In this document: one piece after another, positions 8,379 to 40,978 of the stretch | How positions within the stretch are numbered: position 1 is the first letter of the stretch | How the letters are laid out: every line of letters begins with the position of its first letter | Assembly (NCBI RefSeq): GCF_020991125.1 | Contig: NZ_CP087715.1 | Span: 682,001-746,000, forward strand | DNA from: Microbulbifer celer | Lineage (GTDB): Bacteria; Pseudomonadota; Gammaproteobacteria; Pseudomonadales; Cellvibrionaceae | Direction: 5' to 3' | Length of the DNA stretch: 64,000 nucleotides | The notes under the pieces: generated by a model | What the model saw: the letters and a program-made list of their open reading frames with translations, nothing else | What the model was told of the DNA's origin: nothing | The model's database searches: none | Position numbers and translations under genes: made by a program

Positions 8379-8661
8379 TCTTTCTTGGCGTGTTTCGTAG
8401 ATAGTTTGGGTGGTGGCGCTACTGGGTACTGTCACCTTCACATTCAATTTTCTGGGAAAACGCCGTTAGTGTTTAAAGGCGTTTATGACGCAGGTGGCAA
8501 ATGCGAAGGCGGTGATGCCGGAGATAGGTTTGTGAGACCTTCAAAAACAGGGATGTTTTTGCAGAGCCCCCAGGGATGGGTTCACGGCGTGTCTCACAAA
8601 CCTATCTCCGGCAGCATCGCCGCCACGATGCGAATTTCGAAGCGCCAAAGCATGAAAGGCG
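8379..8661. other. Convergent intergenic region
   Basis: This 283-base gap separates the membrane protein gene (plus strand) from darP (minus strand). It holds repeat copy 1 and a smaller hairpin around 8458-8483 (AACGCC paired with GGCGTT, loop GTTAGTGTTTAAA). I see no gene in it; the 97-codon reading frame that spans it is made by the repeat. Confidence 0.7.
8508..8624. repeat. Structured palindromic intergenic repeat, copy 1
   Basis: Two arms, 8517-8538 and 8591-8612, form a perfect 22-bp stem with a weaker extension on each side to 8508 and 8624. Inside lies a second hairpin (8542-8549 paired with 8554-8561, arm CAAAAACA, loop GGGA). The rest of the interior contains GAGCCCCCAGGGATGGGTTC, which is identical in copy 2. 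The element lies between two convergent genes. There is no T-run next to the outer stem, so it is not an ordinary terminator. A protein-like translation (SPQGWVHGVSH) arises from this conserved core and gives a spurious ORF. Confidence 0.85.
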
Positions 8662-9192
8662 TTACGCCTCCTGCATAAAAAAGTCCCGCAGATAACGGAA
8701 CAGCTTGCGCTGGCTGGAAGGCGGTTTGTTGTGGGAAATTTCCTTTTTCGCTTCGCGAATCAAAGAGCGCAACTGCTGGTGATCTGCGTTGGGGTAGGCA
8801 TCAAAAAATGCACTCTGGGCCTCATTGCCCTGTTCCAGTAACCGCCCGCGCCAGTCTTCCGCCATGCGATCAAAACGCAGGTGTTGTTGATCCATCTCCT
8901 TGCGCTTTTGCAGCACCGCCTCAATCGGATCCGTATCCACCTTGCGCATCAGCTTGCCGATGTACTGCAACTGCCGGCGGCGTGCCTCATTGGATTTGAT
9001 CCGGCGCATGGTCTCGATGGCCTCGCGCAGATCGTCATCCAGCGGTATTTCCGCCAGTTGGACGGGGTTCAGCTCGGTCAGTTGTTTGCCCAGATCCTGC
9101 AGCTCGTGCATTTCCTGTTTGACCTGGGTTTTGCTCTTGGGCTCGTCCCCGTCAAATTCATCGTAGTCGTCAACGTTGTCAGAATGGCGCAT
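8662..9192 (-). CDS. darP: DarP/YjgA, dual-action ribosomal maturation protein (DUF615)
   Basis: This 176-residue protein matches the DUF615 (YjgA/DarP) family, which binds late 50S precursors and promotes assembly of the peptidyl transferase centre. It is highly charged and predicted to be alpha-helical. The N-terminus DEFDGDEPKSKTQVKQEM and the segment IKSNEARRRQLQYIGKLMR are characteristic. It is flanked on both sides by the same structured repeat, so it probably forms its own transcription unit, although mgtE upstream reads in the same direction with a gap of 224 bases. Confidence 0.93.
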   Translation of the reverse strand: MRHSDNVDDYDEFDGDEPKSKTQVKQEMHELQDLGKQLTELNPVQLAEIPLDDDLREAIETMRRIKSNEARRRQLQYIGKLMRKVDTDPIEAVLQKRKEMDQQHLRFDRMAEDWRGRLLEQGNEAQSAFFDAYPNADHQQLRSLIREAKKEISHNKPPSSQRKLFRYLRDFFMQEA

Positions 9193-9264
9193 GAAAGTTC
9201 TCTAAAACAATTTAAATTCTGGTGGCTGCTTTGGCTACTGAAATGCACAGAAGCTTGCCGGGAA

Positions 9265-9379
9265 GGTGGTGCTGCCGGGGATAGCTTTGTGAGACCGTCT
9301 GCGGCCAGGACGGCCGCAGCCGAGCCCCCAGGGATGGGTTCACGGCGTGTCTCACAAAGCTATCCCCGGCAGCACCGCC
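9265..9379. repeat. Structured palindromic intergenic repeat, copy 2
   Basis: Arms 9268-9295 and 9349-9376 are perfectly complementary over 28 bp. An inner hairpin pairs 9299-9306 (CTGCGGCC) with 9312-9319 (GGCCGCAG) around an AGGAC loop. A 37-base block beginning at 9322 (GAGCCCCCAGG...) is identical to copy 1. Where the two copies differ in the stems, both sides change together. It sits between the mgtE end and the darP start. Confidence 0.87.

Positions 9380-40602: not shown

Positions 40603-40978
<376 letters not shown>

Follow-up and report, generated by a model that had tools for sequence, protein, structure and literature searches.

Known CsrA-binding RNAs and palindromic repeats

CsrA/RsmA proteins are global regulators, and most of their restraint is thought to come from a small number of dedicated sponge RNAs. 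They bind hairpin loops of the form ANGGAN, and the sponge RNA CsrB carries CAGGA(U/A/C)G repeats in its hairpin loops (PMC7652899). The CsrA SELEX consensus is RUACARGGAUGU, most of the selected ligands have four or fewer contiguous pairs, and a single CsrA dimer is able to bridge two sites at a distance of 10–63 nt, with an optimum above 18 nt (PMC7652899). The CsrA homologue RsmA is bound by RsmU of Xanthomonas campestris, an RNA with GGA motifs that begins 25 bp past a stop codon (PMC7694677). Another structured RNA, TwoAYGGAY, was found by comparative genomics in the human gut, gammaproteobacteria, and Clostridiales (PMC2864571) and was later proposed, from its loop motifs, to bind CsrA (PMC4333381). 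A different class of folded elements is the REPs, which are single palindromes of 20–40 bp that are tagged at one end by GTAG or CGTC (PMC3733652).

Two elements beside darP

The window analyzed here is a stretch of 64,000 nucleotides from the genome of Microbulbifer celer (contig NZ_CP087715.1, positions 682,001 to 746,000). A sequence-only reading of this DNA had pointed to two elements of about 115 bp around darP, and both are present, at window positions 8508–8621 and 9265–9379. The gene between them (8662–9192, minus strand) has an open reading frame and conservation of its own and is an ordinary gene outside the repeat. In copy 1, read on the plus strand, the 31-nt 5′ arm of the outer stem (8508–8538) pairs with the 3′ arm (8591–8621), which lies 40 nt past the stop codon of darP; the genes on either side are convergent. 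In copy 2, also on the plus strand, the arms lie at 9265–9295 and 9349–9379, the 3′ arm is 37 nt past the stop codon of mgtE, and the element is antisense to both neighbors. The outer stems had been described as perfect over 22 or 28 bp. They are indeed near-perfect, and the uninterrupted 28 bp of copy 2 stands, but the run in copy 1 is 23 bp, and both stems reach 31 bp when one mismatch position is tolerated.

Each outer stem carries two hairpins. Hairpin A of copy 1 (8539–8564, plus strand), with the sequence ACAGGGATGT, presents the loop ACA-GGGA-TGT with its GGA at 8551–8553, similar to the CsrA SELEX motif (PMC7652899). Hairpin A of copy 2 (9296–9322, plus strand) presents C-AGGAC-G with its GGA at 9308–9310, that is, the CAGGACG of a CsrB repeat (PMC7652899). 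The inner stems read CAAAAACA/TGTTTTTG in one copy and CTGCGGCC/GGCCGCAG in the other, so that the sequence differs and the pairing is kept, as had been claimed. Hairpin B follows on the same strand at 8566–8588 and 9324–9346, with a GGA at 8574–8576 (20 nt after the first GGA) and 9332–9334 (21 nt after it); in copy 1, its 3′ side has the bulge TTCAC. The 37-base core common to both copies, gagcccccagggatgggttcacggcgtgtctcacaaa, is identical. The two copies have folding z-scores of −9.8 and −10.5, and not one of 200 shuffles folds equally well. In the 64 kb window, copies 1 and 2 are the only matches to a covariance model trained on 35 copies of the repeat. When the window was compared with Rfam at gathering and relaxed thresholds, both copies gave only chance hairpins (mir-3199 and others). 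Above the gathering score, the only Rfam family matched in the window is the bacterial RNase P RNA of class A, at 40603–40978.

Copy number and distribution

The repeat is abundant in this genome (4.35 Mb, one contig), for which full-genome statistics were computed on fetched stretches. A 25-base core gives 106 matches when up to three mismatches are allowed (reversed control 0), the exact 16-base core occurs 115 times, and the structural model gives at least 149 matches, a lower bound with 150 candidates scored. A covariance search, as suggested by the sequence-only reading, has thus turned up further copies in the genome. Across the searched genomes of the genus, the model-based copy number ranges from 0 to at least 149. 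Exact-core counts had suggested a strict on/off pattern within the genus, which the structural model corrected; one relative has 5 exact cores and 122 model matches.

Beyond the genus, a core scan of the genome collection found at least 118 stretches, with some 30 genera, nearly all gammaproteobacterial, among the matches listed. These include Stenotrophomonas, Xanthomonas, Marinobacter, Rheinheimera, and Microbulbifer, as well as Oceanisphaera, Zobellella, Arenimonas, Methylotuvimicrobium, and Erwinia. The outer-stem arms of the copies in this genome resemble arms at named Microbulbifer loci. Two alphaproteobacterial catabolic plasmids also match, at two places each. On the conjugative catabolic plasmid pDCA (NZ_KU922118.1) of Ancylobacter novellus, the repeat occurs twice, and the genes flanking one of these copies are annotated as ISAs1 and Tn3 transposases; the plasmid is a possible vehicle carrying the repeat beyond the gammaproteobacteria. 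No match was seen in the phages and viral contigs searched or, with an Erwinia copy as query, in E. coli and the plasmids searched. A 3228-base contig from a metagenome bin labeled Klebsiella pneumoniae, which may be misbinned, has two model matches.

What stays constant in the repeat

The repeat measures about 115 bp, or roughly 125–135 bp when its weakly conserved ends are counted; the aligned copies have the end consensus GCGAAGG ... CCGCCAC, and conservation ends about 43 nt (5′) and 40 nt (3′) outside the apical junction. The layout is constant: hairpin A and then hairpin B sit on top of an outer stem of about 31 bp, in which one mismatch position is conserved, and a bulge of five bases (TTCAC or TTTAC) interrupts the 3′ side of hairpin B. 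The sequence of the outer stem differs from copy to copy, and for hairpin A there is a small set of discrete alleles, found together with many different outer stems.

The invariant of the family is the pair of GGA loops and not the 37-base core. The core stem in hairpin B, CCC/GGG, is swapped for TAC/GTA in many copies and for CAC/GTG in a few, and the plasmid copies have GTC/GAC and CTC/GAG. Both hairpins have their GGA in 143 of the 146 forward-strand model matches. Over all 150 matches, the GGA is found 144 times in hairpin A and 145 times in hairpin B; of the rows without it, four come from the palindrome being matched on its reverse strand. When palindromes of this size were sought with no GGA required, 113 were found in 0.44 Mb of this genome, 99 of them with GGA in both loops; the stretches scanned came from the surroundings of known copies, which makes the scan a test of the loops rather than of a genome-wide frequency. 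The base at −1 of the GGA is free, the one at −2 is usually A, and the one at +1 is mostly T or C, which matches ANGGAN; many copies have AGGGAT or AAGGAT. The two GGAs are 20 or 21 nt apart in 133 of 143 copies. As judged from their sequence, both hairpin loops keep ANGGAY, a loop of the CsrA/RsmA recognition type, which had no place in the earlier interpretation.

Several variants of the layout were seen. An inserted module, GGCCGAAGGCGCCG...GCGGCCGG, opens the loop of hairpin A and abolishes the GGA there at G000:C1 near 2376718, 2381005, 3747815, 3244371, 162895, and 3554061. In hairpin B, the 3′ side reads GGGGGGCGCCTAGCTCG instead of the usual ACGGCG at G000:C1 near 463120, 2140549, 2381005, 2592318, 2628964, 2660326, 3251786, 3421784, 3793371, and 3985597. 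At five loci of Methylotuvimicrobium buryatense, another repeated sequence is nested in hairpin A, e.g., ...CAAAATCTGCATTCACGCCATCC... Insertion of the core into pre-existing palindromes was considered and rejected, since the core-less palindromes with similar arms nearly all turned out to carry a different stem in hairpin B or an insert.

Genomic placement and mobility

The sequence-only reading had asked whether the copies are always intergenic, and all 102 copies examined are, with genes called by a simple codon model. The contexts comprise 43 sense-tandem, 31 antisense-tandem, 23 convergent, and 5 divergent copies, and the tandem ones lie a median of 57 or 37 nt past the stop codon. Orientation is nearly free, so a cis role in the 3′-UTR cannot explain everything. 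In three other species of the genus, the model finds a match just downstream of darP, in the orientation of copy 1 but very different from it in sequence, whereas for copy 2 the comparison gave no counterpart. The matches beside darP could be one old insertion that was rewritten in place, or the same site could have been used repeatedly.

An intergenic placement and a patchy distribution are what is expected of a mobile non-coding unit, one of the roles suggested at the outset. The arms differ completely between genera and no target-site duplication of fixed length was found among 76 copies, unlike a classical MITE moved by a DDE transposase. The best locus for an empty-site comparison is a Stenotrophomonas array that is missing from two other genomes of that genus, which amounts to the gain or loss of a whole array and not to a precise junction of a single unit.

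The main rival to a role in CsrA binding is that the repeat is mobile DNA of the REP/REPIN kind. The GGA strand would then fold as single-stranded DNA, for instance while the lagging strand is synthesized, and the loops would be a signal for a transposase (Y1/HUH or other) rather than for CsrA, with the transposase copying the unit to sites past stop codons. This would suit an extragenic element of high copy number that is patchy within the genus and commonly forms inverted pairs, 41–102 bp apart, and Y1 elements likewise leave no target-site duplication. However, no Y1 transposase was found whose presence tracks the copy number: the only Y1-domain gene of this genome, a weak one, is of a type that is also present in relatives with no or few copies. 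The GTAG/CGTC tag is absent from the ends as well, and the specificity of the ANGGAY loops and their fixed distance would be left unexplained. We consider this explanation unlikely, though it is the most serious of the alternatives.

Another possibility is that the repeat is a transcript-end element, whose long stem serves as a barrier to 3′-end exonucleases or as a transcription attenuator, the GGA loops being secondary. The very stable fold, the short distance to stop codons, and the surplus of convergent over divergent copies all agree with such a function. A stem of this sort, however, has no need of two conserved GGA loops at a fixed distance, and the nearly free orientation does not suit it either. 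T-runs are also absent, as the first inspection of the two copies had stated: T4 occurs within 15 nt past the stem in 2 of 102 copies and A4 before the stem in 7 of 102, so the G+C-rich hairpin followed by a T run that defines an intrinsic terminator is lacking. This explanation is improbable.

Compensatory changes in the stems

The double changes that had been noticed in the stems of the two copies are real, both genome-wide and across genera. Among 35 ungapped copies from this genome, both-sided changes occur in 35 of 46 pairs while 98.1% of the cells pair, and shuffled or slid alignments come nowhere near the observed pairing. Over 150 matches, most of which come from other genera, 45 of 46 pairs show such changes and 93.7% of the cells pair, with 2293 double-changed cells compared to 644 in shuffles; this alignment was fitted to the model and is therefore biased towards structure, which is not true of the 35-copy alignment. 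At one locus common to several Stenotrophomonas genomes, all three helices differ and the pairing is kept.

The mismatches have a strand preference. On the GGA strand, G.U outnumbers A.C by 153 to 43 across genera under a scoring that treats both alike, and by 62 to 8 in the basal third of the outer stem in this genome. Such an excess indicates a strand-specific single-stranded fold. The test cannot tell RNA from single-stranded DNA, and so the asymmetry also fits the REP-like explanation. The apical 20 bp of the outer stem in this genome behave differently, with 1493 Watson-Crick, 10 G.U, and 5 A.C cells. These intermediates are far fewer than the double changes imply, so correction of the arms at the DNA level, or conversion between copies, may partly maintain the complementarity. 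The earlier claim of selection on a folded RNA or single-stranded DNA is thus supported in part by the excess of G.U, with the qualification that some of the covariation may have arisen by such correction or conversion. That the repeat is a passive palindrome, its arms kept complementary by quasi-palindrome correction or inter-copy conversion without selection on a folded RNA, would account for the scarcity of one-step intermediates in the apical part and for the discrete alleles of hairpin A on many outer stems, which suggest conversion, but it is very improbable in light of the G.U excess and of the GGA kept in both loops, which lie outside the palindrome.

A predicted CsrA-docking repeat

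The best reading of the repeat is a high-copy, mobile relative of the TwoAYGGAY kind, and we put the probability that its twin hairpin docks CsrA/RsmA at roughly 0.55. The sites have the properties of CsrA targets in silico: a GGA in a hairpin loop, an ANGGAN context, and a bridgeable distance, the 20–21 nt between sites falling within the 10–63 nt range of CsrA and above 18 nt. Both loops are kept while every helix varies, and the loop of hairpin B is retained where its stem has become TAC/GTA or CAC/GTG, a swap likewise seen between species at a shared locus. The excess of G.U on the strand that carries the GGAs is in agreement with docking, as is the location of the copies, which are close to stop codons and rare at divergent promoters. 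The layout is also that of TwoAYGGAY, a member of the CsrB clan and itself a proposed CsrA binder (PMC4333381).

There is one csrA gene in this genome, and csrA is present in 42 of 44 other hosts examined; it was not seen in two draft hosts. To our knowledge, CsrA is near-universal in these bacteria, which makes its co-occurrence with the repeat a necessary but weak test. Other observations count against docking. Because orientation is nearly free and copy 2 is antisense to its neighbors, many copies may lack transcription of the GGA strand, and no conserved promoter was seen upstream of the aligned copies. The hairpin stems, at about 7–10 bp, are also longer than those of most SELEX ligands (PMC7652899).

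If docking occurs, a mechanism can be outlined. Transcription of the copies would come from outside, often as the 3′-UTR of the preceding gene, a route proposed because of the apparent lack of a promoter. One CsrA/RsmA dimer would dock across both loops of the twin hairpin. A docked copy could stabilize or mark the transcript that carries it, and 100 or more copies could jointly titrate CsrA in the fashion of a CsrB-type RNA. The repeat itself would spread as a non-autonomous mobile unit that lands just past stop codons in either orientation, and it may in this way be a mobile, genome-wide CsrA decoy. A more speculative extension, possible but doubtful at present, is that a selfish or domesticated repeat has spread twin CsrA-docking hairpins through gammaproteobacterial genomes and into the 3′-UTRs of 100 or more genes, creating a distributed sponge that couples the availability of CsrA to overall transcription.

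Were docking to be true, many marine and plant-associated bacteria would have a pool of CsrA sites much larger than has been counted, and its size would vary sharply even among closely related species. TwoAYGGAY, a structured RNA with no assigned function, would thereby be offered both a function and a natural history. Under the distributed-sponge extension, copy number would help to set the CsrA threshold of a species. Apart from CsrA, the repeat is a clean case for separating compensatory changes from palindrome correction at the DNA level.

Comparison with known systems

Neither by sequence nor by topic was a description of the repeat found in the open-licence papers searched, and no description of TwoAYGGAY as a repeat of more than 100 copies per genome was found in the literature searched. 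As far as that literature shows, the high-copy repeat is undescribed so far. The REP/REPIN/BIME elements, including SMAG of Stenotrophomonas, are likewise extragenic high-copy palindromes that often form inverted pairs. The present repeat differs in its two hairpins and in its size (about 115 bp compared to 20–40 bp) and has no GTAG/CGTC end tag, and no Y1 transposase that follows its copy number was found. The suggestion of a REP-like element in the sequence-only reading is not supported as far as membership in the REP family goes.

RsmU, in the 3′-UTR of comEA, is an RsmA-binding RNA with GGA motifs just past a stop codon, and the repeat is GGA-bearing as well. RsmU was considered as a studied member of the repeat and rejected, as the 3′ regions of comEA in Xanthomonas and Stenotrophomonas have neither the long stem nor the repeat. 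What these regions do have, in nine stretches from the two genera, is a run of many short GGA hairpins similar to CsrB, and these runs look like a wider family of RsmU. CsrB/RsmB and the related CsrA-sequestering small RNAs (RF00018 and its clan) share with the repeat the GGA in the loop, the CAGGA(U/A/C)G or ANGGAN context, and paired sites within reach of one dimer (PMC7652899). They are single genes with many sites and a promoter of their own, whereas the repeat is dispersed, has two sites per unit, and showed no conserved promoter.

The closest described system is TwoAYGGAY (RF01731, in clan CL00106 with CsrB), which has two GGA-loop hairpins on a long outer stem, as here. With respect to a match to a described repeat family, which the sequence-only reading had named as a refuting outcome, the repeat fails on REP tag and size and shares the TwoAYGGAY layout, albeit with scores below the cut-off. 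The best score in the genome is 39 bits against a gathering cut-off of 43; five matches have E ≤ 10, none of them over the cut-off, and the two copies in the window are unmatched even at E up to 5. A strict AYGGAY is seen in only part of the copies, the second base also being G or A. The RF01731 model nonetheless aligns end to end with copies of the repeat, and with scores below the cut-off the repeat is best filed as a divergent, high-copy variant of TwoAYGGAY rather than as a member of RF01731.
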